A stretch of DNA of 64,000 bases, taken from positions 1,605,081 through 1,669,080 of the forward strand of contig JAMYGW020000009.1 in the NCBI GenBank assembly GCA_025617375.2. The letters run 5' to 3'. The notes below the pieces were generated by a model. That model saw nothing but the letters and a program-made list of their open reading frames with translations. It was not told the origin of the DNA and made no database searches. This stretch comes from Acarospora socialis. Its lineage: Eukaryota; Ascomycota; Lecanoromycetes; Acarosporales; Acarosporaceae. Positions 39,921 to 63,887 of the stretch are shown one piece after another; within the stretch, counting starts at the first letter, position 1, and every line of letters begins with the position of its first letter. Both the position numbers and the translations under genes were made by a program.

Positions 39921-40065
39921 CAACTACTCCACAACCGCAGCTTATACAGACAATCTGAGTATGTAAAATGATGAATTATATATAGATCTAATAGAAATTC
40001 AATTTTCATATGTATCTTTAAGCAATTACATGAGTGATTATCCAAAACAGTCTGTTTTAAGTGTT

Positions 40066-40376
40066 TGTTACGTCCTAGAACTGAGATTCCTCGGGTATGT
40101 TAGGACTAAGGTGTTTGTGCTTGTTGATATAAGGGTTCTCTGATACAGCAATGTTGAATAAACACTTTATTGTAACTAACTTGAGAAGTAAGTTGAACAC
40201 AGTCAATTTCATAGAAAAATTGATCCTACTATATAAGAGACTGCATGTCTGCTCAATGTTGTGTTGTTGTGCTCTGATTCACTGTCTTGCTGATGTGTTG
40301 TCATGCTGTATCTTGCTGTGTGTCTTCTCAGATGTAGTGTTTCTTCTGTTAAGTTCTCTTGAGTATGATTGTAACA
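40066..40376 (-). repeat. LTR of copy C (311 bp)
   Basis: Starts TGTTAC and ends GTAACA, an inverted 6-bp end. Shares the CTACTATATA block with the other LTRs. The 5-base flank to the left is GTGTT; no partner duplication was located. Confidence 0.8.
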
Positions 40377-40451
40377 TCATCTTTTCTCTTTGAGACACTA
40401 GTTCTCTAGTGTCTATTTAAGCAAGAGTATATAAGTTGAATGTCATTCACA

Positions 40452-40868
40452 ATGATAATTTTCAAAAGTGAAAATCATCTTAAACTCACAAAAGAAATTC
40501 AACTGAGTGACAATCTAACTCTTTTTTCTTGCAAATACTGTATTGTCTGTAATCTTCATTGTTTTTCTATAATTGAAGAACATTTTAAGTAATCAAAGTG
40601 TGATAAGTATATCTGTAACAGTCATTCTTATATTGTGATAATGTGAAAGTTTCTTAACAAGACTTGTTTTTTTCTTCAAAGAAAAATAAGTAAAGCAAAT
40701 AATGAATTGACAACACTCTTCACAAAAATTATTCATCTTTAAAAGTTCTTAAATTTTGTCAATTATTATACTTCAGAAAAGATCAACTGTCTTGTTGCTG
40801 AACTTAATAGTGATAATAATGAGACAGAAAATAAAGAAGATTTTTTAACTGAGCAATACATGCAATAA
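40452..40868 (+). pseudogene. Antisense Cys-rich ORF of copy C, degenerate
   Basis: Opposite in strand to the element. Reading from ATG at 40,452 gives a protein alignable to those of A and B, with the cysteine block CKYCIVCNLHC, then SKCDKY, and the acidic ending LVAELNSDNNETEN. In-frame stops interrupt it (TAA after HFK, TGA at the position shared with A and B, and one TAA). A TATATAA lies at 40,428-40,434. It is the most diverged copy, so the ORF predates the split of the LTR subfamilies. Confidence 0.65.
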
Positions 40869-40935
40869 TTAATTAATTTGATGTCATCATTCTTCTGAAA
40901 TTTTATTGTTGTCTTTTTTCAAAATATTAAAGTGT

Positions 40936-41884
40936 TGTTAAAATTGAAACATTTCTATTACTTAATATTAGATGTTTTAATTATTTAAAAAACTAAAATA
41001 CACAAAGAATAACTTTTGTGTATAATAACTAAGCAATATCACATGACACAGAAGATTTTAACACTAAATTAAATAGAGTTAAACTTCTAAAAAGTCTTTT
41101 AATTTCAACACTCTTTCTTAAATCTAGTTAATCTAAATATTCTAGACAATTTAAATACTTATTCATTAATTAGTATAAGTTCTTTGATAAAGTGATCACC
41201 AAACTGAGTTAACTCTGACTAACCTGAATCAAGCTTCTGAATCAAGTCAAGCTGAGTTAAGTTTTTGAGTTTGAAGATTCAAGCTAAGTTTGATTTGAAA
41301 GCTCAGTTTAACTCAGACATTTAGTTCAGATTTTAATGATTATAATTATGATTAAGTAGACTCTTGAATTAGAGTTCAAGAATTTGAGTTGAAAGAGTGT
41401 GATACATGAGCATTATAAGTAAGTATTATATATTGAACAAAGATATTGCTTTCATTCTAAGATTACTATTTATCACATCAAGAAGACAGTATTTCTGAAG
41501 TAATTTTAATCACTTTTACTTCAATTTACATCTTTTGATGCAATATTTCAGTTATGCATGTATCTCTTGATGAGAATCATATTCTTTTGCTGAATAATAA
41601 TTCATTTTGTGTAAATTGCAGCAAAATTAACATCTGAACAAGTTAGTTTATAGTTTTTTAACAGTGTGTTCAATATACTTTCAAAGAAAACAACAACATA
41701 TACTTCTGCAGCTTCTTGCAAACTTTTTATGACTGAGATTTGAAATTAAAAGTTCTTGTTGTGATGTCAAATCTTTATTGAATAGTTCTGAGTGATTTTT
41801 CAGCATAGTTACTGAAAGAAAAGTTTTTTCATTAAGAAATCAGTTGATCTCTGATAGTGACATATTTCACAAAGAATGACAGTT
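40936..41884. other. AT-rich block without recognisable content
   Basis: No alignable element and no coding remnant I can name. At 41,200-41,400 short words such as GAGTTAA and TCAAGCT recur in both orientations. Confidence 0.5.
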
Positions 41885-42365
41885 ATAGAGTAGAATTGAG
41901 TGTTAAAATTGAGCAATAAAATTGAGCAATATCATGAGCACTGTCATCAAGCATCAAAACAAAGCATCAAGATGAAGCATCAAAACTAAGCACTGTCATA
42001 AAGCATCATCATGAAGCACTGTCACAAAGTATTAAAATAAAGCATCAAAACTAAGCATCAAAACTGAGCATCAAAACAAAACATCAAAACTGAGCAATAA
42101 AATTGAGCAATAAAATTGATCAGTATTATAAGCACTGAAACTGAGCACTAAAATGAAGCATTATTATAAAGCACTGAAACAAAGCATCAAAATTGAGCAT
42201 TAAAACTGAGCAATAAAATGAAGCACTGAAACTGAGTATCAAAATAAAGTACTGAAACAAAGCATCAAAACTGAGTATCAAAATAAAGCATTGAAACAAA
42301 GCATCAAAATAAGACATCAAAACAAGATATCAAAACTGAGCAATAAAATTAAACAATAAAATTAA
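41885..42365. repeat. 13-bp minisatellite array, left arm
   Basis: About 35 tandem, imperfect units with consensus AGCATCAAAACTG. Common variants replace CATC with CACTG or CAATA. Its complement forms the right array, so the two arrays are inverted relative to each other. Open frames across it only reflect the repeat and are not genes. Confidence 0.85.
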
Positions 42366-42954
42366 GTTTACTGTCTGACTTTCAGCAGTGAGCTGATCTA
42401 GATTTTGCAGTAACTGTCTGAGTTTCTTCATCTTTATCTGTATTTGCAGCAGTATTTATCTTAATCTTCACTCATATCTCATCAATATTCTTTTTCATGT
42501 TTTCTTCACTCTTTTCTTTTCTCTTTTCTTCATCACAGATTTTCTCATTCTCATGTGTCTTTTCAGCAGTCAATGTCTTTTCTCTGCTCAGTACTGTCTT
42601 CATAGTGTTGCATTTTGTTGATGATTTCTTGCTACATGTCATAATGTAAAATAACAATTTAATAAAGTTCTAAGATTAAGTTAACAGAAGCATTATAAGA
42701 AATTAATATAAAGATATTTTTGAGTGACTGTGTGTTCTAATATATGTAAAAGTCTAAGTTGATGAGTAATTGTAATTTGAAGTTCATCATTAAAAGATGT
42801 TACTGAGATGTTAAAGAGACTGAGATGTTATACTAGTAAATATTACATTCATTTATGATATGTGTGTCAATGTTATAATGTTAGTAAACATCATATTCAC
42901 TCATGATATGTGCATCAATATTATAAGTAAATACATCAATACATCTATCTTTAA
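42366..42954. other. Spacer between inverted minisatellite arrays
   Basis: About 590 bp. The complementary strand has a 61-codon open frame (42,657-42,472) with a Lys/Glu-rich sequence ending ENMKKNIDEI, which may be a decayed coding remnant. Near 42,830-42,930 a unit of about 55 bp ending in TTCA(T/C)TCATGATATGTG is present twice in tandem. Confidence 0.5.
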
Positions 42955-43795
42955 CACTCAGTTTTTATCTTCACTTTTATTGCTCAGTCTCTACATTCAA
43001 TCTCTATGCTCAGTCTTTACACTTAGTTTCTATGCTCAGTTTTTATGCTCAGTTTCTATACTCAGTTTCTATGCTCAGTTTCTATGCTCAGTTTCTACAT
43101 TCAATAAGTTTATCATTTTGTTTTAATGCTTCATTCAGATGCTTTGTTTTGATACTTTGTTTTGATGCTTTATTTTGATGCTCAGTTTTAGTACTTAATT
43201 TTAGTGCTTCAATTTGATGCTTCATTTTGATGCTCAATTTTGATGCTTTGTTTTAATGCTTAATCTTAATGCTTTAATTTGATGCTCAATTTTGATGCTT
43301 TGTTCTAATGCTTAGTCTCAATGCTTTGATTTGATGTTTAATTTATTGCTCAATTTTATTGTTCAGTTTTGATGTTTTGTTTCAGTACTCAATTTTAATG
43401 CTTCATTTTGATGCTTAATTTTGATGCTTCATTCTGGTGCTTAGTCTTGATACTTTAATTTGATGCTCAATTTATTGCTTAATTTTATCACTCAGTTTTG
43501 ATGTTTCATTCTAGTGCTCAATTTTGATACTTTGTTCTGATGCTTAGTCTTGATGCTTTGATTTGATACTCAATTTATTGCTTAATTTTATCACTCAGTT
43601 TTGATGTTTCATTCTGGTGCTCAATTTTGATGCTTTGTCTTGATGCTTTGTGATGATGCTCAATTATAGTGCTTTGTCTTGATGCTTTGTGACAATACTT
43701 AATTTTAATGCTTAATTTTAATACTTCAATTCAGTGCTTTATTTCAGTGCTCATTCTATCACTCAATAATAATGCTCATTTTAGTGCTCAAAGCT
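42955..43795. repeat. 13-bp minisatellite array, right arm (inverted)
   Basis: About 60 imperfect tandem units of TGATGCTCAGTTT/TGATGCTTTGTTT, the reverse complement of the left-arm unit. The first units (43,005-43,100) form a homogeneous TATGCTCAGTTTC subfamily; the rest are more diverged. Together with the left arm it could form a large imperfect hairpin. Confidence 0.85.
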
Positions 43796-43942
43796 AACTT
43801 TATATTCTAGACTCTCACAATAACAGAATTCTCAGATACTAAGTTTTCATTTTTCTTTATTAAATAACTTGTCTCTATTTCATCAATAAGCTCAGAAAAT
43901 ATCTTAAATATAAGCTCTGATTGTTGTAATCATTCTTATAAG
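43796..43942. other. Pre-insertion flank of element A
   Basis: AT-rich sequence that, before insertion of A, continued directly into 56,322 onward. No feature recognised. Confidence 0.4.
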
Positions 43943-43947
43943 TCATT
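43943..43947. repeat. Target-site duplication of element A, left copy (TCATT)
   Basis: TCATT immediately left of the LTR. The same five bases lie immediately right of the other LTR (56,317-56,321). Five bases is the normal Ty3/gypsy duplication size. Confidence 0.85.
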
Positions 43948-44308
43948 TGTAATGTTTTAATCTGAGATTTCTCAAGTATGTAGAGTTAAGAGTTTGTGCT
44001 TATTGATATAACAGCTGGTCTGAAATGGTTCTGAACTTTAACTCTTAGATGATTATTTGAGTTAAACATAATTGTTTTCATAAGAAAAACAACTCTACTA
44101 TATAGAATGTGCTTAACATCTCTGTATCAAGCATTCTTGATGTTTTGATGTTTTAATATTGAGAAATTGAGTTTCTGACTTGTCTGCTTATCATTAAGTC
44201 ATTATACTGTTATATGACTGCTGTCTAGCAATCTTCTTTGTACACACTTTGAGTGAATTTTTAATCACAGACTTGTGAGTTTCTTTCTTTCTAGATATGA
44301 TTGTAACA
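43948..44308 (-). repeat. 3' LTR of element A (361 bp)
   Basis: Begins TGTAATGTTTTAATCTGAG and ends ATGATTGTAACA. Same length and subfamily as 55956-56316 (both share GCTGTCTAGCA followed by TCTTCTTTGTACACACT), and unlike the 349-bp LTRs of B. A pyrimidine tract (44,309-44,323) adjoins it, the complementary polypurine tract. Confidence 0.9.
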
Positions 44309-44387
44309 TCATTTTTTTTCTTCAGACACTAGTTCTCTAAAATTTATTTAAGTAAGAGTATATAATGACTTTTTGTCATCAGCAACA

Positions 44388-44810
44388 ATGCTTTTTAAAA
44401 ATTTTAATCATTTAAGAATTACAAAGAAAATTCAGATCAGTGATAGTCTTATTATGTTTTTTTGTGAATTCTGTATCACTTGTGATCTTGATTATTTTGT
44501 TATGTTCAGTGAAAGATCAAAGTGTGATAAGTATACTCATCATGATCATCTGTGCATTGCAGTTTTGTGAAAGTCTCTCAACAGAACTCATCTTTCTCTT
44601 CAAAAGAAAATAAGTGATGCAAATATGACTCTTGATGTTCTTGCTGTCAAGATAATACATTTTCAAAAGACTTTAAATCAAACAGATTGTCATATTGCAC
44701 AGAAGATTGACTGTCTTGCTGCTGAACTTGATAGTGATAATGATGAAATTGAGAATGAAGATTCTCAAACAATGTTATAACTTATTAACTTAATATTGTC
44801 ATTCTTCTGA
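44388..44810 (+). pseudogene. Antisense 140-codon Cys-rich ORF of element A
   Basis: Opposite to gag-pol, between the end of integrase and the 3' LTR. 423 bp including the final TGA, exactly the same length as in B. In-frame TGA at codon 61 and TAA at codon 131 break it. The cysteine pattern CEFC..(x6)..Y..SKCDKY..(x6)..C follows the Zn2Cys6 spacing with the third and fifth Cys read as Tyr (TAT). A TATATAA lies at 44,359-44,365. The second half is a predicted helix ending in the acidic stretch LAAELDSDNDEIENED. Confidence 0.75.
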
Positions 44811-44859
44811 GCTAATATCAACTTTCTTTCTCAAAATGTTGTAATGTTTTTGTGTAGTT

Positions 44860-47830
44860 CTTGAGATTTTCTCTTGATTTTCAGATATTTTCTGAGATGT
44901 CATAATCTTTTCACTTGATGAGATAGTGAACTTTCTCATTAATCATTCTCTTTTCTAGAATATTCTTGACTTCATATTCTTTGTTGAGTTTGACAGATAT
45001 TTTGTTGATTTAAAGTGATATGAACTGATTGCAGTGCTGTAACATGAATGCATGAAATACAGAATGTTTATTCATTTTCTTGAGTAAGTTTAGTTCATAG
45101 TTTAATTTCTTGATGTTTCATATGATCTTGAATGATTCAATGTTTTTGTTCTTTAGCTTCTTGCTTTTTCTCTTTGTTCATATGTTGTTTGTTTTTAGAT
45201 ATATCTTCTCTTTCTCTTTGAATGATTTTGTCTTTATCATTTGTTTCATCTGCTGTTCAATCTATTTCATCAGATCTTGATGCAGTTTTTTCATCTGTGT
45301 AATATTTAAAATTACTTTTTGACTTTGTGATCTGTGTTCTTTGAAATCTCATTATATCTTTGAGTTGTAGTCATAGTTCACATAGAAAGACATCTCTTTC
45401 ATGATTTCATTTCTTGCATTGTTGTATGCAAACTGTGCTGTAAACAACAGTCATACTCAGTCATTTTGACTTCTGTTGACATAGTGTCTCAAGTATGTTT
45501 TTATTGTTTAATTTATTCACTTACTTTGTTCATCTGTCTGTGAATAATATGCTATTAACATCTTGTGTTTTATTCTGAGCTCTGCTGTAAACATTTCTCA
45601 GAACTTACTTGTAAACAGTTTGTCTCTGTTAATGATAAATTCTTTTAATAGTTTATGACTGTTAATCAATTCTCTTAGTATTGTGTATGTCAATGTCAGT
45701 GCTGTTGTGATTTTCTTGAATGAAATGAACATCATGTACTTGATTAATCTGTTCACTATGATCAATATACTGTAAAATTTCATTTTTCATGTCAGATCTT
45801 TTGACAATGATAGCTTCATAATGAAGTTTATGATAACTGACTTTCATGATGTGTTTGATGCATCTAGTTGTGTTACTTCATTGTATTATTTATCTCAATT
45901 AATCTTGTTTCTTCAGTATAAATTACACACAGTGATCATTCTGATGACTCAATTTCTAAAATTACTAATATTGTGTCTTTTTCTTACTAAATCTTTGATG
46001 CATTTAACTTTTAGATGTTCTTCAGTTTTGCTGTAGTGACATATCTTTATAAGTTCTTTATCTGTCAAGAAAGCTTGCTTTATCTTGTATATTGCTGCTA
46101 AGTTCTTCATGAGAATTTTGTTGTTGTCTTTGCTCAGAATTTCAACATATATCATTTGTACATCTTCATGATCAAATCATCTGCTCAAGATATCTGCTTT
46201 ATTATTCTCATTATTTTTCTTGTAATAAATTTGAAATTCATAATCTGTTAACTGTTCTGCTCAATGAATCTGTCATTGATTGAGTTGTTTTGTTATTGTA
46301 AAGTTTCTCAAATTCTTGTGATCTGTATAGATTTAAATTGACTTGTTTGTTTCTGCAAGATAAGATCTTCAGTCTTGTAGTGCTTTTACTATTGCAAGAA
46401 GTTTCTTATTATGAATCTCATATCTTTTCTTGAGTTCTGATAACTTTCTAAATCAATATGCTATGAGTTTCTGCTGCTCTTTCTCAATCTGATATAAATA
46501 TGTGTTTATTGTGAAATCTGAAGCATCAGTTTTCAGTATTTTCTTGTATGCTGAATTGAATATTCTCAGATGTGCTGTTTCACTAAAACTTTTCTTTAAT
46601 ATGTGAAACACATTCTTCTGCTTTTTACTTCAATGTTATTTTTTGCTTTTGTGTGTCAAATGTGTTAGTGATTTTGCAATTCTTGCATAATTTGATACAA
46701 ACTTTCAATAATAGTTCATCAATTCTAGAAAGACTTGCACTTTCTTGATTCTTCTCAGTGTTGATCAATCTTTAACTACTTTTATCTTCTTTGAATTCTT
46801 CTTAATCTGTTCAGATCAAATTACATAGTCTAGAAACTTGACTTTCTTAATCTCAAATCTGTTTTTTGACTTTTTCATGTACAGAGCTCTCTTGTTGAGT
46901 CTTGTCAGTATTTTGTGCATATATTTGTGATGCTCTTCAAGATCTTCTGAATATATCAGAATGTCATTGAGATATGTGATCATAAAATCATTGAGATATT
47001 CTCTTAATATGTCATTGATTAATCTCTGAAAGATGACTGAGATGTTTTTTAACTCAAATAACATAACAATATACTCATAATGTTCATATTTTGTTCAGAA
47101 TGCTGTTTTTCATTCTTTATCTTCTTTCATTCTGACTTGATAGTAGATGTTCTTAAGATCTAAACTCATAAATTACTTAATCTTCTTTAATCAGTTTTGC
47201 AGCTCTTCTATCAACAGTAGTGAATAATTATCTCTGTGAATTATTTCATTGAGCTGTTTGTAGTTGATACATAGTTGTTTTTTGTCATCTTTCTTGAGTA
47301 CAAACAGAATTGAGTATTCTGCTGATGACTTTAATGATTTTATGAATTCTCTCTTGAGATTCTCATCAAGATAAGTTTTAACTTTCTTGAGTTGATTCTC
47401 ACTCATTGAGTATAATGACATTCACTTAGATTGCTTTCTGTTCAATAGTGATATCTTATGATCTTATAACTTATATTCTAATAAACTCATCTCTGATTGT
47501 TTAGAAATCTCATATGTGTCTTTAACTGTGTATATTTCTTTTGTAACTCAATTAATCTTTGAATTCTTTTTGCACAATCAAGACATTTTTAGCATTGTGT
47601 CATATTCAATTGATTTCATAATGTCAAATGTTATCTCTTGTGAGTTTTCAAGAATTGAGATCTCTACACAGACTTTCTCATTAATTTTTTTAATGACTTC
47701 ATTTGTCATTTGTATGTTGAATGAACAGTGCACTCACTGTGTCTCTAATTTCAACATATCAATTATTTTTTTGCTTATGATGTTACTGTCTACTTCAGAA
47801 TTCACTAAAGTATTGATCTGATATCTGTCA
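44860..47830 (-). pseudogene. pol remnant of element A (protease, RT, RNase H, integrase, chromodomain)
   Basis: On the complementary strand. The chromodomain is visible near 44,900-44,980 (YEVKNILEKRM..HYLIK, with TGA where the family has Trp, then KDYD). The integrase zinc-binding part lies around 46,155-45,949, and RT at 47,421-46,816 with QRLINDILREYLNDFMITYL followed by ND. That YLND is a mutated catalytic YLDD. The protease reads LVNSEVDSNIIS (about 47,815-47,780), with the active-site D-S-G-A lost. Most stops sit at expected Trp or Arg codons and read TGA. Confidence 0.88.
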
Positions 47831-49686
47831 ATTGTGATTTTGATTCATATTTGATGATTATTATTTTGTCTTTGAGATGTCACTAGCTTCTTATTCTCTA
47901 GTCTTGTCAAGAGAGCTTTTCATTTTTTGACTCATCTGATCATTCAGCTTGTCTTTAAAGTTCTTGAAATCATTTTGATTTTCTTTTGATCATAAAATTC
48001 ACATACTTTAGACTGTATTGCTCAATGTATCTTTCTGAGTGTAGTCAAAATTCATACTGATTGTACTTTATCTGCAACTGACTTTTTAAGACTTTTACTC
48101 TTTGCAGAAATTCTGATGATATATACTTCTTGCTGCAGATTTATCTGTTTTTATTCTGTGTGATATATTCTTTGAGTAAGTGTATTTCAATCTTGTGACT
48201 CTTTGTCTTTCATACAAGAAATTTCAATAATATAATGTTGTCACTGCTGAGACATTCATCTTTAACAGCTATCATCAGCTCATCTAGCTGATCATATATT
48301 TTGCACTCTTTCACACTCTTGTGTTGTGCTTTTCATTTTCAAGCTTGTATCTCTTGTTCAAGCTCACACTTCTCAAACTGAAGCTTTTCTTCTCTCAACA
48401 CTCAGCATTGATTTTTCAGATGCTGATATGTCATCTTTAGTTTCATATTGATTTTTCATTTGTCAATTTCTTTCTGATTCACATTCAAGTTCAGTGTCTA
48501 TTAAATGCTATCACTGTAGTCTTTTATTTGAGTTTCTCAAGTATCAGTCTCTTCAATCTCAGCATCAAGAATGTTTTTCTTGATATATTCTTTTGTTAAA
48601 ATAGCTAATTCTTTCTCATAGATCAGTCAATTCATCATGTTGTATCTGTCTTTAGCATCTTTACACTGTCACTGAGAATATCATTCAGCTTCATCTTTTG
48701 CACTTATGTGTACTCTGCACATGTCATCATAACAGACTGTTCAGCTGAGAACATTGTGCATTATATGTGTATTTTTCTTGACTGCTGCTGCTATATTTTT
48801 TCTTTTTATTTGAGATTTGTTGCACTCTCAGACAAGATGTTCAGATTTTTCACAGTTGTAACACATTTACATTTCATTTCACAGTGTTATCTGAGACTTA
48901 CTGAATCACTTCTGCTGACATTCAGACTTCATTTGTTTAGTTTTTTATGACTTTTAACAACACTTCTTAATTACATTAAGATTCATAGAATCTGTTCTTC
49001 TATGTCTTATCAATGAAATATATTGCTTTGTTCACAGTCAAAAGCTTTCTTCTTGATCTTCTATCATAGATAACATTCAATATTTTTTTTGTTTCATCTG
49101 TCATTTTCATTGACAACTGTCAATGTTAATACTCAAATTAATCATTTTCTGAAGATCATCTGATCATTTTGCTCAAGCTATCTTGTCTTTGATGAACTTC
49201 TTCAACTCACAATAGTACTGATAAATAAGTGCTTCATTATCTCATCTGATAAGTACTGTTAATTGCTGAAACTCTGTGATGTATACTGTTGTTGATTTAC
49301 TCTGTCACAAGATATAAACTTGTTTCTCTGCTGTTCTTTCTTTGTTGATCACTCTGAAGACTTTCTTGAGTTTTTTCTTGAACTTGTTGAAGTCATTGAA
49401 CATGAACTTCATGTTAACATTGCATTTGTTGTAATTCTTTTCTAAAAATTCATGTAACTTGAGATCAACTTAATCAAAGACTGTGTTCACTAGATAGGTT
49501 GTTGCAAACAATGTTTTTTCTTGATTAATTTGAAACTTTAATTGATTGAATTCAATATACAGATCAAGCTTAGTCACAAAGACTTACAACTTTTTTCATT
49601 CTTCATCAAAGATATCAAGTATCTGAATCTTTGATGCACTCACAGATAGTTGTATTATCTGAGCTGACATCACTGATTGTGCTGTC
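47831..49686 (-). pseudogene. gag remnant of element A (larger part)
   Basis: Complementary strand. A CCHC knuckle is visible around 48,830-48,870 (CYNCEKSEHLV, a TGA, then EC), indicating a nucleocapsid. Upstream is a coiled-coil-like gag body broken by TGA stops. The first about 30 codons lie on the other side of element B (55,844-55,927). Confidence 0.75.
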
Positions 49687-49691
49687 ATTCT
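49687..49691. repeat. Target-site duplication of element B, left copy (ATTCT)
   Basis: ATTCT immediately left of B; the identical copy lies at 55,839-55,843. The gag sequence of A on the two sides joins through one copy and matches the uninterrupted gag of B (TCACTCT|ATCTGAG), proving the insertion point. Confidence 0.93.
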
Positions 49692-50040
49692 TGTAATGTT
49701 CTCACATGAGATTTCTCTCATATTAGAGCTAAGATTTTGATCTTTTGATATAAGAACTGATCTGAAATGGTTCTGGTCTTAAGTCTTAGATTGTTACTTA
49801 AGTTGAACATGATTGTTTTCATAAAAAAAACAATTCTACTATATAGAACATGCTCAACACTTCTGCATTAAGCTCTCTTGATGTCTTGATGTCTTGATGT
49901 TGAGGAGTTGAGCTTCAGCTTGCTCACTCATCATTAAGCTGTCAAGATGTCACATAATCACTGTCTGAACATTTCTGACCATATACTCTCTGAGTATACA
50001 TCTCAGTTTGTTTTAAGTTTCTTCTGACTTGATTGTAACA
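49692..50040 (-). repeat. 3' LTR of element B (349 bp)
   Basis: Begins TGTAATGTTCTCACATGAG and ends TTGATTGTAACA. Followed at 50,041-50,056 by TCATTCTTTTCTCTCT, the complement of a polypurine tract. Pairs with 55490-55838. Confidence 0.92.
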
Positions 50041-50091
50041 TCATTCTTTTCTCTCTAGATGCTAGTTCTCTAGAGTTTATTTAAGTGAGAG

Positions 50092-50098
50092 TATATAA
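50092..50098 (+). promoter_or_regulatory. TATA-like box upstream of the antisense ORF (element B)
   Basis: TATATAA, 20 bp before the ATG at 50,119, inside a conserved stretch CTAGTTCTCTAG..GAGAGTATATAA. The same box sits at 44,359 (A) and 40,428 (C). The distance to ATG is short for a classical TATA-directed start site, so its role is uncertain. Confidence 0.45.
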
Positions 50099-50118
50099 TC
50101 AAGTCATCATCAGCAACA

Positions 50119-50541: not shown

Positions 50542-50559
50542 GCTAAAGTCAATTTTTTT

Positions 50560-53716: not shown

Positions 53717-55461
53717 TGTGATTTTCTTCTGATCATAAGGTTTGCATACTTTAGACTGTGTTACTCAATGCATCTTTTCAGGTGTAATCAGAGTTCATAC
53801 TAATTGTACTTCATCTGCAACTGACTCTCATAGACTCTTACTTGTTGCAGAAATTTCAGTAATATGTACTTTTCACTGAAGATTCATTTGTCTTCATTCT
53901 GCATGGCATACTCTTCAGATAAGTGTATCTTTATCTTGTAACTCTTTGTTTTTCACACAAGAAATGTTGATGTTATCACATTGTTGCTGTTGAAACATTT
54001 GTCTTTAACAGCTGTCATCAACTCATCTAGTTGATTGCATGCCTCATGCTCTTTTTCTTTTTTGTGCTGTACTTTCTGTTTTCAAGCTTGCATCTCTTGT
54101 TTGAGCTCTTTTTTCTTGAATTGCAGCTTTTCTTTTGTCAATGCTCTGTGTTGATTTTCAGAGTGCTGGTATGTTGTCTTCAGCTTCATATTAACTTTTT
54201 ATTTGTTAATCTCTTTCTGGTTCACATCTGAATTCAGTACTTGTTAAATGCTATCACTGTAGTTTTCTTCTATCTGAGTTTCTTGAGTATTGATTTCTTT
54301 GATCTTGACATCAAGAACATTTTTCTTGGTATATTTCTTTGTAAGAATAGCTAGTTCTTTCTTGTGAGTCAGTCTATTGTGTTCACCCTTTGTCTGTCTA
54401 AACTTCTTGAAATATCATTTGACTTTATTCTTCACACTCATGTGTGTTCAACACATATCATTGTAACAGACTGTTCAGCTAAGATTGTTGTGCACTACTT
54501 TTCTAGTTGCAACTGCAGCTTGCTTTCTTTTGTATTGAGGTTTTCTGCAATCTTGTGCAATATGTTTGATGATTTTACAGTTATAGCATTTTCACATCTC
54601 AGTCATGTTCATGAGCTTTCTCTTCATGAACATGTTCTTTCTGTCTCACAGTGCTTTTTCTGGTTTTCTGAGTACTGATGATTCTCAATTGATCATGTTG
54701 AGGTTCATGAAGTCATTTCTATATTGTGAAGTTATTCTTCTTTCTTATCTCTTGAGCACTTTGTGTCTGGTTTTTCTCATCTGTCTTTCTCATTGATAAC
54801 TGTCAATGTTAATGAATAAGTTAATCATTTTCTGAAGATTGCTTGATTGTTCTGCTCAAGCTATCTCATTCTTGATAGTCTCTTGAAGTTTTCAGTAATA
54901 CTAATATGTCAGAATCTCATTGTTTCAGTGTGTGAGTGTCACTGTTCTTTGAAACTCTGTGATGTACTTTGCTGCTGATTCACTCTGCTGCAAGATGTGA
55001 ATTTGTCTTGCTGTTGCTTGTTCTTCATTGACTATCTTGAAGACTCATTGCAGCTCACTTTTAAACTCAGTGTAGTCATTAAACATGAATTTCATATTGT
55101 TGTTGCATTCCTGATAGCTTTTTTCTAGAAACTTGTGCAATCTGAGATTGATTCAGTTGAAGACTGCATTCATAAGATACATCATAGTGAACAATGTCTT
55201 TTCTTGGTCAGTCTGAAACTTAGACTGATTGAATTCAATATATAGATTGAGTTTAGTCAAAAAGACTTGCAGCTTTTCTCATTCTCTCTCAAAGATATTT
55301 GGTGTCTGTATCTTAAATGCACTCAGAGATAATTGTATAACTTGAATCAACATCATAACTGATGACATCATCACTCTATCTGAGATAGACAGTAAGAGTG
55401 AGTTTGTCTGAGCTTGACTCAAGAATAAGATTGAGACATTCTTCTGTGTGTCAGACATCAT
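53717..55461 (-). pseudogene. gag remnant of element B
   Basis: Complementary strand, start Met at 55,461 or 55,458 (MSDTQKNVSILFLSQ), about 28 bp inside the 5' LTR. Coiled-coil-like body with TGA stops. One CCHC knuckle, CYNCKIIKHIAQDC (about 54,590-54,550), followed by basic residues. The knuckle's Gly positions are now Lys/Ile, again fitting GG loss. Confidence 0.8.
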
Positions 55462-55489
55462 ACTTTTTATATTGTAAGAGTGTTCAAAG

Positions 55490-55838
55490 TGTAACATTCT
55501 CACATGAGATTTCTCTCATATTAGAGCTAAGATTTTGATCTTTTGATATAAGAGCTGATCTGAAATGGTTCTGGTCTTAAGTCTTAGATTGTTACTTAAG
55601 TTGAACATGATTGTTTTCATAAGAAAAATGATTCTACTATATAGAATGTGCTTGACATCTCTGTGTTGAGCTCTCTTAATGTCTTAATGTCTTGATGTTG
55701 AGAAGTCAAGCTTCAGCTTGTTCACTCATCATCAAGCTGTCAAGATGTCACATGATCACTGTCTGAACATCTCTGACTATATGCTTTCTGAGTGTACATC
55801 TCAGTTCACTTTAAGTCTCTTCTGACTTGATCATAACA
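55490..55838 (-). repeat. 5' LTR of element B (349 bp)
   Basis: Begins TGTAACATTCTCACATGAG and ends TGATCATAACA. Just inside it on the complementary strand, three bases precede TGAACACTCTTA, which could be a TGG-type primer-binding site with the second G mutated; no tRNA match is claimed. Confidence 0.92.
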
Positions 55839-55843
55839 ATTCT
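55839..55843. repeat. Target-site duplication of element B, right copy (ATTCT)
   Basis: Partner of 49,687-49,691. The gag start of element A resumes directly after it. Confidence 0.93.
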
Positions 55844-55927
55844 ATCTGAAGTAAATGATAAAGATGAATTTGCTTGAGCTTGTCTTAAAAATAAGATTGA
55901 GACATTCTTCTGTGTGTCAGACATCAT
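55844..55927 (-). pseudogene. gag 5' end of element A, cut off by B
   Basis: Matches the first codons of gag in B (including the CATTCTTCTGTGTGTCAGAC block around the Met) and joins in register to 49,686 once B and one ATTCT are removed. Confidence 0.8.
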
Positions 55928-55955
55928 ACTTATTATATTATAAGAATATTCAAAG

Positions 55956-56316
55956 TGTAACATTCTAATCTGAGATTTCTCAGATATGTAGAACTAAAAG
56001 TTTGTACTTATTGATATAACAGCTGATCTGAAATGATTCTGAACTTTAACTCTTAGATGATTATTTAAGTTGAACATAATTGTTTTCATAAGAAAAATGA
56101 CTTTACTATATAGAATATGCTCAATGTCTCTGCATTGAGCATTCTTGATGTTTCAATGTCTCAATGTTGAGAGATTGAGTTTTCAGCTCATCTGCTCACC
56201 ATTAAGTCATTGCATTGTTACATAACTGCTGTCTAGCAGTCTTCTTTGTACACACTTCAGATAAACTCTTGATCACAGATCTATGAGTTTCTTTCTCTTT
56301 AGATATGATTGTAACA
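55956..56316 (-). repeat. 5' LTR of element A (361 bp)
   Basis: Begins TGTAACATTCTAATCTGAG and ends ATGATTGTAACA. Same subfamily and length as 43948-44308. Confidence 0.9.
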
Positions 56317-56321
56317 TCATT
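56317..56321. repeat. Target-site duplication of element A, right copy (TCATT)
   Basis: Partner of 43,943-43,947. Confidence 0.85.
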
Positions 56322-57360
56322 ATATAATTTAAAGAAGATGTTTAATGAGTACTCAAACAACTCAAAAATTGTTCAGACACAGAAAAGGCATCAGAAACTT
56401 ATGAAAAATGAAAACATTAAACAAATTAAACATATAAAGACAGCAAATTACAGAGCTGTGAAACAGAAGAGAGACATTATGAAAAAGTTAAAAGAATATA
56501 AAATCACAAATTTTGCTGTACAGAAAATCATGAAAGAAAAAATAAAGAAAGAAGTTTTGAAAAAGCAATATAATCATGAAATATCTGATAGATTTTAAGA
56601 ATTATAATGCTCTATTATAATACTTCTAACTATCTGCAGCTGTCTATTATAAAGATAAGCTTAAAGCTTGTTTGATGAAGCAGAAGAATCAAGCTTGAAT
56701 TGATGAAAAAACTGAGAAGAAAAGATTATTTACTGATGCTTTGACTCTGAAAGAGAAGTATAAGTTTAAGAAATTACAGCAAGAGATATACTTTATATTG
56801 AAGTTTTATAGTTTCTCTGACTTTCTTCAGTTTGTTGACAAAAATGTCATTATCAATGAAAAGTACAGCAATATCAATCAGCAGATTGACAAACATCTTG
56901 CTGTTGTAATGAAACATTAAAAAAAAATCATTGATCTCACAGAAGAGCAAAAGCTACATAATGCTGAGAATTTTGATTCTGCAAAGACAATGTGTCTTTT
57001 CTGTAGTGATGTTCTTAATCTTAAGTATATTGCTGATTATGATCATTCATAAGTATTATATCACTCAGTTATAACACTTTGTACTTTTAACAGTGACTAA
57101 ATATATTCAAGAGTCTGCAGTTGATCAAGAAGAAGAGAAAGAAAAGAGTGTTGTTAAAGATGTTAATAAAGCTTGTGTGATAAAGTTTGAAGATGAGAAG
57201 TTCTCAGATGATGATTCAATTGATTAGTTTATTATTGATGCAGCAATTACTGATGTAAAAGATGATAAAAAAAAGAAAGATAAAGCTGAAAATAATGAGA
57301 ATGATGAGAGTATTACAGATGAGAACAGTGATGAGAAGAAAAATGAATAGTAAAGTAATA
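56322..57360 (+). pseudogene. Unrecognised Lys-rich coding remnant
   Basis: An open frame to 56,598 encodes a Lys/Gln/Asn-rich helical peptide (KIVQTQKRHQKLMKNENIKQ and onward, ending NHEISDRF). Beyond a stop, a frame-compatible stretch continues with TGA/TAA breaks to a CLFC motif near 57,000, and an acidic Glu/Asp/Lys-rich end follows at 57,100-57,350. It looks like the 3' part of an old transposon or host gene, but I cannot assign a family. Confidence 0.4.
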
Positions 57361-58149
57361 CACAGTTTTATGATGACTAAAACTGTAAGATAGTAAGAGA
57401 ATAATCAGAGATGTCTGTCAAATTGTTTATTTTTATATTTTTGATAATCAATTATCTGATTATGAATATGAATTTTTAATAATAAGTTTTTTCTCTCTAA
57501 AATATTGTGTTTAATGCTATTACATAACATAGATTGAAGTTGTAGTATAGAATTTTACATTAAATTATCTACTTCAATAACTGATTATTGTTAACTTGTT
57601 ATGCAGAGTAGCATTCTCATTGATTTTATTATGTATAAATTATAAGAATTTTGTCTTTTACTTGTGTAAATTTTGTGATCACATGATCACATTCTTATGA
57701 AAAAAAACTTACAAAGTTTCACAACACTCTTCAAATTTTACTATTGTTATACTACAATAAAACATCATCTACTCAATCAACTTACTCTGAGAAATCATCA
57801 TTATGTCTTTATACAGTTCTTTCTTCAATCAGCTGACAAGTGACTCAGAAAGTTCTTTTATGAGTGTTTTCACTGATAGAGTTTGATCATCTTAACAGAT
57901 ACAATCACTCTCTTTAACTTTAACAAATGCATATAATTCAGAGTATGTTCTTTGAATTTCTGCAATGAAGCAAGAGTTTTAAGAGTGATAAGAAACAACT
58001 ATATAAAGTTAAGACACAGTTGCAAAAGTCAAAAAACATGTTTCAATGCTGTAAAACAGTTCAAGTTGCTCAGCAAGACAGATTTCAATCTTTGCAGCAC
58101 TGAATATCACTGTATGCTATGTTTTTCAGTTATAACACTTTAATATAAC
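57361..58149. other. AT-rich spacer, possibly the hAT N-terminal region
   Basis: No confident feature. A 63-codon frame at 57,952-58,143 ending HCMLCFSVITL could be a decayed zinc-finger N-terminus of the hAT transposase, out of frame with the rest. Confidence 0.35.
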
Positions 58150-59563
58150 ACTCACATCTGTGCAGACAGTTCAAAAAATCATTGTCAAATTACTTAACTT
58201 TACTTCTGAAGTCTTCAATCAGCAAATTCTTCAATTTATTATAGCACTCAATTTGTTCTTTCATGCTGTTGAGCATCTAGAGTTTTGAACACTCATCTAA
58301 ATATGTTATGCTGAAATTAAGATTTCAGATCAAACAAAAGTTACATAACTTCTTAAACATCATACTGTAAACATTCAAAAAGATGTTCTTGCAGAACTTA
58401 AGCTGCAGATTAAAGTCTTTATTATACTTGATGAATGAATCAGTCTCAATTATCTTGCATTTTTAAACATCACTGCATACTTCATTAACACTAAGTGAAA
58501 GTACAAAGAGATACTTCTAGCATTCAGAGAAATAAAGAATCAATATAGTGGTGAAAATTTAGTTGAGTATGTTTTTAAAATGTTGAAAAAGTGAAATTTA
58601 ACACATCAGTTATTAGTGATCACAACAGACAATACTTTCAACAATTATACTTTAAGACATCATCTCAGTCAACTTTTAAGTGCAAAGAATATAATTTGAA
58701 GTGATGAAACTGAAATCATAAATTGCATGATACATGTTATTCAGCTTGCAGTCAATCAGCTACTTATATATTTGAAAGTTAATGTTAAAAATAATCACTT
58801 TACAACTACATTCAATGACAGTAAGCTACAAAAGCTCATCTTTAAAAAGAACTATTTCTTTAATATTATACTGAAAAAGATCAGTAAATCTTTTGTAACA
58901 CTTCATTATAACACTTCATTATAATGCTTCATTTCAGTTAATCATTATGCTAACAAAATATTGATGAAAATTCATATACTTGCTATTGCAATCATGACAT
59001 TATCACAGCAACTTAAGCTGTTCAAAGAATTGCAGAAGACAAATTCACAGAGTATGATTGAGAATGTAAGAACTCAGTGAAACTCATTTTATGATATGCT
59101 GAATTAAACATATAAACTATGAATCAAACTCTCTCAATAAATAGAGCATTTGACTAAAACAACAAGCAGAATGAAGTTTCTCAAGTATAATACAAGAAAG
59201 TGACAGCATGTCAAGTACATACTGCATCTTCTGAAACACTTTAAGAATTAAACAGAGATTATGAGTGTTATTAATGAGTCAACAATTTACAAACTGTGAT
59301 TCACATACAACAATCTGTTTGATCATCTCAAAAATCAGAACAAAGTAATTGAGAAGTTTAAATTATTCTTCAATTCTGAGTTGCTGAATGTCATTGATGC
59401 ATGTAAAAAAAAACTAACTCAATATTATGAAAAGACAGAAGTCAATCATGAATTGTTCTGTAATCTTGAGACAATATTGAATTTATGCAACAAGCTTAAT
59501 ATGTACAATGTAGACATTCTTCAATCTGTCACTATGTGTGAACAGATCTTTAAAGAATCATGA
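58150..59563 (+). pseudogene. hAT-family DNA transposase remnant
   Basis: One frame reads through the hAT core when stops are ignored: FFHAVEHLEF, ISLNYLAFLNITAYFI, KYKEILLAFREIKNQYSGEN, ITTDN, MIHVIQLAVNQLL, then NSFYDML, TEIMSVINESTIY and LTQYYEKT. These match, in order, the catalytic core and the insert of hAT (hobo/Ac/Tam3) transposases. My tally in this frame is 9 TGA, 5 TAA and no TAG stops. Several TGA codons sit exactly where the family has Trp (before KYKEI, in the WNSTYDML-type motif), others where Arg is expected. Terminal repeats and the 8-bp target duplication were not found. Completely inactive. Confidence 0.8.
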
Positions 59564-60780
59564 CAAAAATTTAATCTTTCACTAGCAAAATCTTAATATT
59601 TCAGATGAATTCATTCAACATACACTAGTGAGAAAGTGTGAGCAAATATTCATAATTATTTAAAACAATTTAATGACTAATGTTGTTTACATCAGAGAAT
59701 TTCACATTGATCAAAAGCATCATTATCATTCAACTCAATCAAAACTTCAGTTGAAACATGAAGAGTTCTACACTATTGTGTACTCATTTGAATCATTTTT
59801 ACAATGCATCTGTTACACTCAATGATCTTGATCATGATTAAGATAAATATGCAATACTCATTTGACAGTGTCAACACTTCTGACTGCAAATCAGCTCTTG
59901 AAGATGCAAAAGCTCTTGACTGTGATTAAGCACTTGTGTATGTGAAAGATATAAATAACAATGATTTTCTTGATGACTCAAAAATCTTTAACTGTAATTA
60001 AAAACTTAATGATCAGATAATCTGAACTGCTTAAGAGTCTTTGAGTGTGATTAAGATCTTGATGATACATCAAACTTTGACATCAAATATTTTGTTATGA
60101 ATACAAAGAAGATCAGAATAAAGAGTTGTTCATTAAGATTGAGAAAACTTAACATGTCATGACAAGAAAAATCAGCAATCAAGCTTGAGAATTAACAACA
60201 TAATTTGACATGATTTGACAGCAACCAAATCTGAGTGAATTTATCATGTTATGACATGAAAAATCAGCAATCAAGATCAAGAAGACTTATCATATCATGT
60301 CATAAAAAGACAGCATGTTTAACTTTTGATCACAGTCACAATCATTATGATGTTTACATTCTTAATATTCAAAGATTTTCTTAAGAACACTCAGAAAAAA
60401 AAGAAAAGATTGTTCATCAAAGTTGAGAATATGTATCATATCATGACATGAAAAGACAGTATGTTGAATGAAATAGAGTTGACTTCAATTGTAAGTAATG
60501 AAGACAACAGTATAAGCAAAAATTGACATGATATTGAGATCAAAGTAATGAGTCTCAAGAATTCAACACTAAACTAAATTCAGAGTACAACAAAGAGTCT
60601 TAACATAATTAACAATTATGAGATCTTTGTTCATCAAATCTTATAATAGCTTGATCTGCTCAGACAGAATGTCTTTTTTCTTTTATTATGTGTTTATAAG
60701 CTGTTGACAATTGTCACAATCATTTCACTACAGCTATGTTGATAGTTAATATTTCAACTCTTTTCTCAAATGAAACTATT
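59564..60780. other. AT-rich, no recognisable gene
   Basis: Possible degraded C-terminal part of the hAT transposase near 59,600-59,900. Otherwise recurring words such as CATGACA(A/T)GAAAA(A/G) near 60,150-60,450 (TCATG-containing units repeated about four times). Confidence 0.4.
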
Positions 60781-60799
60781 GTTATAGCAGATCATCATT

Positions 60800-61647
60800 T
60801 CAACACTCTTCACAAAGCTCTTTAGTTTATAGTTAAACAATTAAAAAAGAAACACTATCAGTAACAGCAAGAGCTGAGTGACTATCTTACACATGCAAGT
60901 TAAGTCATTAACAATGTCATCAAAGCATTTTATAAATACATCTGCAAAAACAAAAGCTGAAAACAAGCAGTCAGCAAAAATATCTTTTTAAAAGAGATCA
61001 GAAAGCTGCAAAATGTAGTTGTTAAAACTGTGAAAGAACAAAACTGACAGAAAGAGATTCACAAAAGAATACTTGAAAAGTGAGAACAAGCAGTGAAAGA
61101 CTTGCTTATTCAGATTATGTCATATAATTTTCTGATAGTGATGAGAAAATATTTAATTAAGTGCTCTCTGAAGAAAATACTTTTAGAAGTTAATCAGTGA
61201 ATTCTTCATCAAAAACTTTACTTTAAGTCTGACATTTTCATGATTTCAGAGTCTCTGACAAGCAATTTTGATCATGTTTTAAATAAGAGAGTTATATTGA
61301 AACTCATCAAGCAATGAGATTTAAGAAAAGTGAAGTTGTGTATGAATTGCATAGAATTGATGAAATTAAGAAATCAAGATCAAATAATGAAGAGTCTTAT
61401 TGTTGTCTCACTGTCTTCTGAACAAAATAATGAATCAGAAGTTAAAGAGTTTTTAAACTCATCTGAATCTGAGATAGAAGATTTTTCAAAGATCTTGATG
61501 ACTGACTCTGCTGAAAATGATGATTTTATTGTGAATAAAAAAGATGAATCTTTGCAGATTAACTACAATGATATTAATGAGATTTCATTACATTCAATCA
61601 ACAACAATTCAGAAGAAAATGTGAATCATATAGTCACAAAGTTTTGA
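60800..61647 (+). pseudogene. Unrecognised protein remnant with Trp-to-TGA scars
   Basis: A single frame is readable for about 280 codons, broken mainly by TGA (for example at LIKQ-stop-DLRK and VNQ-stop-ILHQ), and open without break from 61,330 to 61,647. The upstream part is Lys-rich and helical; the open part is acidic (NSSESEIEDFSKILMTDSAE). Its stop pattern equals that of the hAT and pol remnants, so it was once coding. The family is not recognised; it could be a gag-like or helitron/transposon accessory protein. Confidence 0.5.
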
Positions 61648-63887
61648 TCTGATCATACAGAAGATGTTGAGAGAATTTGTTTATTGCTTAAAAAAGATCT
61701 TTACTCACTAACATCTTCAAGTTCAACAATGCTCTGTTCATTTCATCTTGAAGAGTATTTGCTTATTGAAGAAAATGTTTCATTATGAGATAGTGTGCAA
61801 CAAACATCAACAAGATGTTGTCTTTCATCTGAGTTTGAAGACTCATGAAATTGACTTAAATATTTTATTTAATTGATTACATCAGCTTTAAATGAACTGA
61901 CAGCACATAAAGAAGTTTAAAGTCAGAAAAGAGACTGAGTTTTGATTTTAAAGAAGACATTGACTCACTGAAGCAATGAACAATCTAGATCTCTATAAGT
62001 TTTGAAGTCAAGTTTTAACATTTTTCTCATTTAAGTGAAGCAATCTGTTAAAAGAACTGAATGTGTGATCAATTAAGAACTCAGACATCAACTATATTCA
62101 TTATTCATTTGTCAACAACTGATGGGCAGAAGAGTCAACAATCATTTTTAAGTCAGTTTATATTGTGAATGAGATTGTAAACTATGAGTTTAATATGTAT
62201 CAACATTATTTCAGAACTCTTGATGAAAAAAAGAATCAGAGTTAAATTAAGACAATGCTTTACTCTTTAAGATAGCAGCTTATATAACAGAATTCTGTTA
62301 TGTATTTAATTGTCTGTCATCATTGATTGAATAATTCATAATGATTGATATTTTATCTCTTTTACTTCAAGAAAAAACTGATCTTAAATACATTCTTACT
62401 TGAGCATTTATCAGTGAAGCTATCTTCTCATGATCATCATAACTATTGAGTTGATCATCTGACTCAATCTATGAACTTAAGTTCTAATCATCATTGAATT
62501 GTATTAAACAATATGTGCATTTTCAAAGATAATACATCAAAACAAAATATATCATTCTGATTTGTAGATCTGCAGAAGAACTTGAAACAGTTAAAATTAT
62601 CTGAAATAAACATCTAATCTTAACTTGCAGAGATATATTGAAATCTAAAGATCTTTAAATGAATGTTCAAGAATATATCTTGATGATTTGTGACACTTTC
62701 TTTTAGATTTTCTGTCACAATCAAATTATCTGAACTCTTTTCTCTGTCAGATGTCTTAGTGTGTTGTGTTTAATGAGATTCATTGATGATTTTAGCTGAA
62801 AAAGATCTTTTTTTAAAGTCTGATCATGATGCAGCTGTGTAATATGTACATTGCTGATGTGCTCAAGCACAAAAGCACATGAATAAATACTTTCAACATC
62901 TATAACAGATTAAGCAGAAAGTCTTTGACAAACAATTTTATTTCTATTGTCTCAATCAAGATCTTGATGAAAGAAATCTGTCAAAAAATTTTGAAAAACT
63001 CAATTTTTCAGAAGATCAGTTGTCTACAGAGAGTTCTGAACTGCTGTGAAGAAAGAATAAATTGATATAATGATGTTATTTTCAGTATGATAAAGTTGAA
63101 GCAGATGACAAAAAGAATTTTAGTGCATCACACAGTTCTGTAACTAATATCTTAATAATTTTATCTTTTTGTCTTTGCAATTCTCATCATTGCTGTATTT
63201 TTCAGACAAGTTCTTGATTTCAAACTTTTCATGCTCAGCAAGCTAAGTCATATATCTATATATCTGATTCATCTCTCATCATGCAATCACATGTAGTTCA
63301 AAAAGTTCAGAAATGATTCAAAACAATTTGATAATTAAGAAAGTCTCATGAAATCTTACATCTATCTCAAAAATGACTCATTATTACTTATACTGTCTGA
63401 CTCAATTGTAACTGTGAAATAACACAAAGAACTAACATCAGATTAACTCTCTTCAAGTAAGATGTCTTCTTATGCATCTACATTATGCAGTGATTTTAAT
63501 CATGATTAAGACAATTATACAGTGTTCATTTCTTCAAAATTTCAGTTGTGAAACTAGATTCAATTTCATTCTCAAGATCTCTTTTTCAAGCATTAATTTA
63601 GTTAACAATGACTAATCTTTGTGAATCATTTTTTTTCTTCATCTAGCAAAGAAAATACTATTTAATCATTTCAAATAATCATCAAGCTTTTTTCAACATA
63701 TCAGTTAATTCATCTTGCATTCTTACAGTTATAATATGTCTTTTAACAGCAATTCTTTGTTCTTTGATGATCTTCACAAAGTTGTTATTTGTTACATTTG
63801 CTGCATCAATGTAAAGTTCAAGCATCTATCTGTTCATCTCAACAACTATTATAAAAAAACTTTGTCTTCAGAGTTCAGAAGAATTGC
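61648..63887. other. AT-rich subtelomere
   Basis: No gene supported. CC, GG and CG are almost absent here (a rare exception is GGG near 62,124). There are no degenerate telomeric repeats and no recognisable telomere-linked helicase. Confidence 0.5.

Follow-up and report, generated by a model that had tools for sequence, protein, structure and literature searches.

Preferential loss of CpC and CpG in hypermutated repeats of the ascomycete Acarospora socialis

The stretch of DNA analysed here, referred to below as the window, is the right-hand terminal 64 kb of contig C9 of Acarospora socialis (GenBank assembly GCA_025617375.2, contig JAMYGW020000009.1, positions 1,605,081 to 1,669,080), and it ends in a telomere that is preceded by a block of repeats in which the dinucleotides CC, GG and CG have nearly disappeared. 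An earlier reading made from the letters of this DNA (the sequence-only reading) had attributed the loss to a C-to-T process which prefers CpC and CpG and differs from classical repeat-induced point mutation (RIP). By comparing copies of the repeats across this one genome (31.1 Mb in 38 contigs), we find that C-to-T change in two repeat families falls preferentially at C before C or G (CpS), that it recurs on recently copied elements, and that the genic DNA sampled is spared. Contigs are called C1, C2 and so on, L-numbers denote stretches read from the genome, and P-numbers denote related proteins.

A hypermutated block beside a telomere

Across positions 42,001-62,000 of the window, CC, GG and CG are observed 15, 48 and 0 times, whereas base composition predicts 457, 434 and 445. 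Base composition alone was ruled out as the cause of this depletion by 200 base shuffles, in which the three dinucleotides together numbered 1253-1412 (minimum 1253) versus 63 in the actual sequence. When depletion was called in half-kb windows, the unit used for such calls throughout, it was found in all 47 over 40,001-63,500 and in none of the 80 over 1-40,000, and genic DNA at 1-39,500 has CC odds of 0.95 and CG odds of 0.91. The edge is sharp, with scattered CC, GG and CG as far as 40,134 and 68 remaining across 40,225-63,880. The block that the sequence-only reading had placed at 39930..63887 is therefore real and sharply bounded, but it starts slightly later, at ~40,136.

The dinucleotides CA and TG are over-represented in the block (CA odds 1.54, TA odds 0.59, G+C 0.295), and CC occurs 0-7 times per 2 kb. 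Two earlier hand counts were reproduced: over 47,461-47,760 the 48 C consist of 24 CT, 23 CA and a last C whose A lies just outside, with no CC, CG or GG, and on the line 45,001-45,060 CA+TG exceed AC+GT by 14 to 7, the ratio of about 2:1 originally given. It had also been anticipated that standard RIP indices would score this DNA as un-RIPped, and with thresholds after the available part of PMC7882544 none of 23 one-kb windows is called RIP (mean TpA/ApT 0.67, mean (CpA+TpG)/(ApC+GpT) 1.61).

Simulated complete conversion of the window's own genic DNA at CpC and CpG produced a composition that resembles the block: G+C falls to 0.27 when conversion is done in one pass and to 0.35 when it is gradual, with CA odds of 1.39-1.74 and TA odds of 0.77-0.38. 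Simulated conversion at CpA gave a result unlike the block (CA 0, TA 1.88), and conversion at CpG only still left CC odds of 1.08.

The contents of the block are given in Table 1. Two gypsy-type copies lie in tandem, with repeat pairs offset by ~5,731 bp, and the RVT_1 and SH3_Tf2-1 domains support the gypsy identity first assigned to the element.

Table 1. Features of the window (positions within the 64 kb).
Feature	Position	Strand	Remarks
Ordinary genic DNA, internal control	1..39930	.	G+C ~52%, long open reading frames, no depletion in half-kb windows
Hypermutated subtelomeric block	40136..63887	.	CpC/CpG/GpG nearly gone, CpA/TpG kept, G+C 27-34%
Third gypsy-type copy, fragment, mutated	40366..40837	-	Repeat families D12, D13, D16
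Dispersed repeat containing minisatellite arrays (13-bp period, opposite orientations)	41894..43782	.	Families D1-D3, inverted pairs I1-I18; almost CC/CG-free
Almost fully mutated Ty3/gypsy-type copy	44297..49991 (approximate)	-	CC 0-1, CG 0 per 2 kb; reverse transcriptase piece W46: CC+GG 0, CG 0
Second copy of the same gypsy type, less completely mutated	50030..55789 (approximate)	-	Some CC/GG left; reverse transcriptase piece W52: CC+GG 18, CG 0
SH3_Tf2-1 domain in an open piece (integrase end of gypsy)	50645..51082	-	E 1.1e-12
Reverse transcriptase region RVT_1	52553..53005	-	3 TGA and 1 TAA inside; C9:1657633-1658085
Part of another dispersed repeat	58001..60000	.	17 further genome places match 1.26-1.45 kb at 83-90% identity
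Telomere (TTAGGG)n	63888..64000	+	GG kept

Mutation contexts in aligned repeat copies

A search with one copy of a long interspersed nuclear element (LINE) yielded 57 candidates, of which 40 were scored (94-100% identity). The same 1.35 kb was read from 20 copies, of which 10 have an internal stop in the RVT_1 match and 10 have none, and 19 of the 20 were compared with L027 (to which L028 is identical). Sorted by 3' neighbour, distinct C-to-T (or G-to-A) sites were found at 57 of 72 CpC and 6 of 6 CpG versus 16 of 234 CpA and 10 of 172 CpT, in agreement with the preference for CpC and CpG that had been proposed. Changes of this kind make up 89 of 124 distinct changes and occur on both strands (42 C>T, 47 G>A), the others being T>C (14), A>G (8) and transversions (13). 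Little depends on the 5' neighbour (ACC 18/25, CCC 10/12, GCC 11/15, TCC 18/20), the second C of CCA, which is a CpA site, changed at 2 of 41, and per-copy mutation of CCC (0.04) is lower than that of CCA (0.12) and CCT (0.13).

These CpS mutations are recurrent and not simply inherited, as 543 of 946 informative CpS site pairs are incompatible with a single tree, compared with 3 of 120 pairs elsewhere. Among 10 older copies (45 pairs, which are not independent), per-site differences amount to 0.269 at CpS, 0.018 for other transitions at C or G and 0.0011 for transversions, an excess of CpS over transversions of ~250-fold. Of the 136 pairwise differences among nine young copies, 132 are at CpS, which places activity of the process after the most recent burst of copying. 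Changes private to one copy number 23 at CpS, 19 at C before A or T and 22 elsewhere (16 of these 22 from one divergent copy, L041), which gives a CpS excess of only 18-fold; we think that the private-change rate undercounts recurrent mutations and that the pairwise comparison and the homoplasy test are the better measure.

The gypsy family is found in at least 61 places in the genome, where RVT_1 matches of all kinds number 151, and ~1.05-1.08 kb around the reverse transcriptase was aligned from 12 genome copies and the two window copies. Two little-mutated copies, L045 and L046 (77% identical to each other), served as references for the other 12. No CpG is left in the 12 mutated copies (44-52% of C and G in CpG sites changed, or ~one base per CpG), and losses at the other contexts are 45-74% for CpC, 24-38% for CpT and 13-32% for CpA; the background, taken as the difference between L045 and L046, is 0.17-0.25 for CpG, 0.11-0.12 for CpC, 0.18-0.24 for CpT and 0.09-0.10 for CpA. 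Loss thus proceeds at CpG first and CpC next, with CpA and CpT slower yet above background. The sequence-only description of CA as spared is correct in degree, but CpA and CpT do change at low, nonzero rates.

Compared with L045, each mutated gypsy copy carries 158-229 C>T/G>A changes, 49-71 reverse transitions and 56-65 transversions. Stops in the L045 frame comprise 127 TGA, 9 TAA and 5 TAG, with 14 of the TGA at places where L045 has TGA too. The Trp codon TGG has become TGA 72 times, TAG 5 times and TAA 5 times, which indicates that, within one codon, G opposite CpC changes far more than G opposite CpA. Wider context has a minor effect (versus L045: CCA 0.61, CCT 0.59, CCC 0.52, CCG 0.49; TCC 0.68, ACC 0.42). 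In both families, therefore, the tabulation of C-to-T change by 3' neighbour in aligned copies, a check suggested along with the original claim, points mainly to CpC and CpG and not to CpA.

The same data bear on whether this could be classical CpA-directed RIP that looks odd because of composition or saturation. Such a process would be in keeping with the drop in G+C in repeats and with the RID and DIM-2 genes described below, but the low count at CpA relative to CpC in the LINE, the depletion of TA and enrichment of CA in the block, and the identity of the gypsy stops (127 of 141 are TGA) are so contrary to it that we consider it extremely improbable. Decay of methylated CpG only, of the basidiomycete type, was ruled out by the CpC changes in the LINE and by the scarcity of CC in the block.

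Codon pattern and location of the LINE family

The open LINE frame of L027 (451 codons in the 1.35 kb read, G+C 36%) contains 3 CG in all. Its CC are distributed 18/5/3 over the codon phases, the 18 in phase 1-2 being Pro codons, and its GG are spread 19/13/14; in the host DIM-2 open reading frame, used for comparison, CC is spread 75/68/65 and CG 71/61/87. At synonymous LINE positions C is used in 5 of 115 cases after C and in 33 of 154 after A or T (p 4e-5), and G in 0 of 115 after C as opposed to 32 of 134 (p 4e-10). In comparison with 1000 codon shuffles, codon junctions contain 3 CC where 10.0 are expected (a count as low in 5 shuffles) and no CG where 12.5 are expected (0 shuffles); GG, at 14 versus 14.7 expected, is not depleted. 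Avoidance is evident for CpG and for sense-strand CpC but not for antisense CpC, a strand asymmetry that exists though present-day mutations fall on both strands. Such codon usage suggests long exposure of the family to a mutator of this kind, and the LINE may be a naturally occurring example of a transposon that has persisted under a mutator by losing target sites.

The codon pattern also helps in judging whether the depletion is a technical artefact, in which methylated CC and CG were mis-called as TC and TG in the assembly. Heavily methylated repeats can be mis-called, and the argument from codons is weakened by the spread of GG over all phases and its normal number at junctions. However, mis-calling is blind to codons, and the LINE frame keeps CC where Pro is needed but is poor in CC and CG at synonymous positions and junctions; in addition, certain copies of one and the same element are almost alike. 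An artefact of this kind is, in our judgement, highly improbable.

The 40 scored LINE copies form one cluster per contig on C1-C12 and C14 (L025-L044), for example at 2.65-2.80 Mb on C1, 1.25 Mb on C9 and 0.15 Mb on C12, and none of these 40 (of 57 candidates) was found on C13. The young LINE family is probably centromere-specific.

Distribution of depletion in the genome

The left ends of 17 contigs were read for 10 kb each, and the interior was sampled as 12 stretches of 1.5 kb at fixed positions. Among the left ends, depleted half-kb windows make up 15-19 of 20 at C2, C5, C7, C8, C11, C14 and C17, 12 of 20 at C1 and 3-7 of 20 at C3, C4, C10 and C12, and there were none at C6 (10 readable windows), C9, C13, C15 and C16. 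Eleven of the 12 interior samples are normal, and the twelfth (L059, at 1.0 Mb on C2) is both depleted and a repeat, matching the minisatellite repeat of the window (C9:1646974-1648811) as well as other contigs. Around the three methyltransferase genes described below, 0 of 54 windows are depleted. Ordinary genic DNA is spared among the stretches sampled, and the equal depletion of CC and CG in non-duplicated genic DNA, named beforehand as a point against the sequence-only reading, was seen in none of it. All four of the depleted or mutated sequences that were searched (gypsy, LINE, window 58,001-60,000 and L059) are multi-copy.

Of the contig ends read, the left end of C14 (L021 1-2500) has the CpS-free stretch that is richest in AT, with a G+C content of 15% and no CC, GG or CG.

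Several contig ends have other peculiarities. Contig C1 runs on past both of its telomere arrays (L008 1-3469 at the left, C1:4,073,064-4,079,479 at the right), and the left extension, which is AT-rich, not CpS-depleted and contains two tRNAs, resembles organellar DNA attached beyond the telomere. Contigs C15 (L022, 247 kb) and C16 (L023, 182 kb) are AT-rich and retain CC and CG in their first 10 kb; L022 contains a bacterial-type large-subunit rRNA and tRNAs, and these two contigs are perhaps organelle genomes, for example of a photobiont plastid. An Rfam search of L016 gave no match.

Candidate enzymes

C5-methyltransferases of the Dnmt1 group select their targets by the 3' neighbour, and AID/APOBEC deaminases read the 5' neighbour. 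The strong 3' and weak 5' dependence found in both families therefore indicates a methyltransferase-type process. The sequence-only reading had also offered a deaminase, and an AID/APOBEC-like cytidine deaminase that edits repeat DNA or retroelement cDNA would be in line with C-to-T hypermutation in retroelements and with LINE junctions that lack sense CC and CG but not GG, an asymmetry which methylation of both strands alone does not explain. The evidence on the other side is that the 3' neighbour decides while the 5' effect is modest (in gypsy, TCC exceeds ACC), that both strands of the LINE copies are mutated, and that two other dispersed repeats of unassigned kind (window 58,001-60,000 and L059) are depleted too. 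In addition, no APOBEC_N match was found in the genome at E 0.01, in a search whose control was detected in one genome, below cut-off, and which did not extend to other deaminase families. A deaminase is accordingly disfavoured, and we regard it as very unlikely. A search for TET/JBP gave no match, with the control silent as well.

In the window, to the extent examined, the remark that the responsible gene is not visible proved correct, but a search of the whole genome with PF00145, of the kind that had been recommended, identified three C5-methyltransferase genes, namely homologues of RID, DIM-2 and DNMT5. The predicted RID and DIM-2 genes have uninterrupted frames, and the DNMT5 homologue was seen in pieces. 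The putative DIM-2 (C3:855.6 kb) is a 1158-aa open frame with DUF7893, a BAH domain just under cut-off and a methyltransferase domain (670 bits to chain 9bap). The RID-like gene (C2:1,420 kb) has an SPPCQ motif, a 52-bp intron and no internal stop, and its product is nearest to that of Pleopsidium flavum (79% identity over 301 aa). The DIM-2 of Pleopsidium, which also belongs to the Acarosporales (Lecanoromycetes), is 75% identical over the methyltransferase domain, and metagenome proteins are closer, at up to 93%. The kinship of its RID and DIM-2 with lichen fungi of the Acarosporales type indicates that the host is probably lichen-forming. The DNMT5-like gene (C8:614 kb) was recognised as a methyltransferase piece and, apart from it, an SNF2-containing frame of 1184 aa; the score against 7r76, called Rad8 in the Protein Data Bank and taken by us to be Cryptococcus Dnmt5, is 693 bits. 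The genome also contains one chromo-shadow match, a candidate HP1, and one Pre-SET match, a candidate DIM-5.

In the structure of Neurospora DIM-2, as described in the available part of PMC11315935, N1170 and R1145 contact the +1 partner base, T1167 contacts the +1 backbone and R1175 intercalates. The protein of A. socialis keeps R1145, T1164, T1166, T1167, D1173 and R1175 and has R at 1170 (Neurospora numbering). In an alignment of 121 sequences (this protein and the best 120 of 1244 matches), R1175 is present only in the A. socialis DIM-2 and its ten closest matches (P0121-P0130), and eight of these 11 also have R1170, with H, T and H in P0124, P0125 and P0128. As R is found at 1170 in 34 of the 121, N1170R was rejected as a unique specificity switch. 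In RID, the TT motif has Cys in place of its second Thr here, and 11 aligned relatives have Thr. Among the best 120 of 1368 RID matches, 65 matched the motif pattern (P0004 elsewhere in the protein) and 55 were unmatched and uncounted; Cys is also present in 16 of the 65, and the Thr-to-Cys change was likewise rejected as a unique switch. Since the residues checked are not unique to this fungus, the altered target-recognition region that the sequence-only reading had envisaged is unproven, and R1170 and R1175 in DIM-2 and the Cys in RID are leads, not proof, as specificity determinants.

The RID comparison also revealed an apparent second, diverged RID paralogue in Teloschistales lichens (P0065, P0070, P0074, P0075, P0080, P0089, P0090, P0101 and P0102), in pairs such as P0016 and P0065 of Loekoesia and P0025 and P0070 of Blastenia.

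A probable RIP-like process with altered specificity

The ~250-fold excess of CpS changes over transversions, their recurrence and the near-completion of the loss favour directed mutation, and a variant RID/Dnmt pathway, as first suggested, remains the best explanation. We consider it likely that a RIP-like directed defence, with specificity for CpS instead of CpA, converts C to T on both strands of repeats. In such a pathway, repeats would be recognised through homology or through heterochromatin that carries HP1 and trimethylated lysine 9 of histone H3 (H3K9me3), a C5-methyltransferase of the RID/DIM-2 type, choosing its target by the 3' neighbour, would engage CpC and CpG, and the C, or 5-methylcytosine, would afterwards be deaminated to T. 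DNMT5 may maintain CpG methylation, with the result that CpG is lost before CpC, and the specificity could reside in one CpS-specific enzyme or in two, one for CpG and one for CpC.

Several observations weigh against this interpretation. Losses at CpA and CpT in gypsy copies exceed the divergence of L045 and L046, CpA and CpT transitions are raised in the LINEs too (0.018 versus 0.0011 for transversions, though 15-fold less than CpS), and the Arg and Cys residues discussed above occur in other proteins among those compared. Furthermore, 14 LINE copies are at (rounded) 100% identity, and the nine of them that were read, including L027, differ from L027 by 0-4 CpS sites. In Neurospora, RIP mutates all copies in a cross; young LINE copies that are nearly unmutated suggest, by contrast, that among them the process is rare, slow-acting or blocked.

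The gradient of LINE copies from nearly untouched, as several young ones are, to heavily mutated would also fit a model without active mutagenesis, in which repeats carry permanent methylation of CpC and CpG (by a system like methylation induced premeiotically (MIP), plus DNMT5 maintenance) and 5-methylcytosine slowly decays to T. The presence of a DNMT5 homologue, the loss of CpG ahead of CpC and the 18-fold excess among private changes, which is within reach of 5-methylcytosine decay, are consistent with this model. However, it accounts poorly for the contrast between CpS differences and transversions among older LINE copies and for near-complete loss across >20 kb, so passive decay appears unlikely to us.

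The directed process could be described more specifically, if only tentatively. The mutator may follow the rule 'C before a G:C pair' and be driven by RID or DIM-2 with a target-recognition loop that reads the +1 base pair; the Arg that often replaces Neurospora Asn1170 in DIM-2 of the Acarosporales type could read guanine on either strand (and hence CpC and CpG), and the probably centromeric LINE could have co-evolved by shedding CpG and sense-strand CpC where its protein allows. This combination is conceivable, but we hold it to be somewhat doubtful. With this system, how RID and DIM-2 come by their sequence preference could be tested by exchanging their target-recognition regions.

Relation to known systems

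No report of RIP directed at CpC plus CpG was found in the literature searched, though a precedent may exist in Clutterbuck's 2011 work, reportedly an early survey of RIP contexts. The comparisons below draw on those portions of the cited sources that were available. Among signatures of RIP-like mutation, CpA, CpT and CpG are listed by Amselem et al. (2015; PMC4352252), and an analysis of 1,239 genomes describes RIP-like defences as sharing a CpA preference (Badet and Croll, 2025; PMC12543289). The term CpC is absent from the available portion of a 2026 review of fungal methylation (PMC13297926). Because surveys of RIP rest on CpA, and the indices move in the wrong direction here, genomes such as this one would be scored as RIP-free.

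The RIP-like mutation of basidiomycetes (Microbotryum, Rhizoctonia) at CpG or TpCpG resembles the present case in converting CpG to TpG in repeats, but the available accounts make no claim for CpC. Table 2 of a study of Rhizoctonia solani AG8 gives CpC changes every 214 bp versus CpG changes every 370 bp, in genes also, while the paper stresses CpG (PMC4014442), and these CpC changes are a possible precedent.

Among lichen fungi, Endocarpon pusillum and Cladonia rangiformis have AT-rich repeats, as seen here, and RID and DIM-2 are reported in Cladonia (PMC12542154). Classic indices in Endocarpon (TpA/ApT 1.47, substrate index 0.70) are the opposite of those in the block (PMC3897900), and the G+C content of Cladonia repeats peaks at ~16%, below the 0.27-0.35 obtained by simulated CpS conversion (PMC12542154). 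In Ascobolus MIP an enzyme of the RID class (Masc1) acts on repeats, as the RID-like candidate may do here, but MIP methylates without mutating (PMC4352252).

CpG is a major target of RIP in Trichoderma reesei and Aspergillus nidulans, as it is in A. socialis. Unlike here, CpA is mutated about as much as CpG and CpC least in T. reesei (PMC5496416), and the A. nidulans MATE elements have CpG and CpA as targets, with CpC not leading (PMC2621366). The process in A. socialis shares with Neurospora RIP the C:G to T:A transitions on both strands of repeats and the presence of homologues of, or candidates for, RID, DIM-2, HP1 and DIM-5, but it differs in that CpG and CpC dominate and many young repeats are hardly mutated. 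The order of contexts in Neurospora is CpA>CpT>CpG>CpC (PMC5496416), so that the least favoured context of that system is, together with CpG, the main target in this one.

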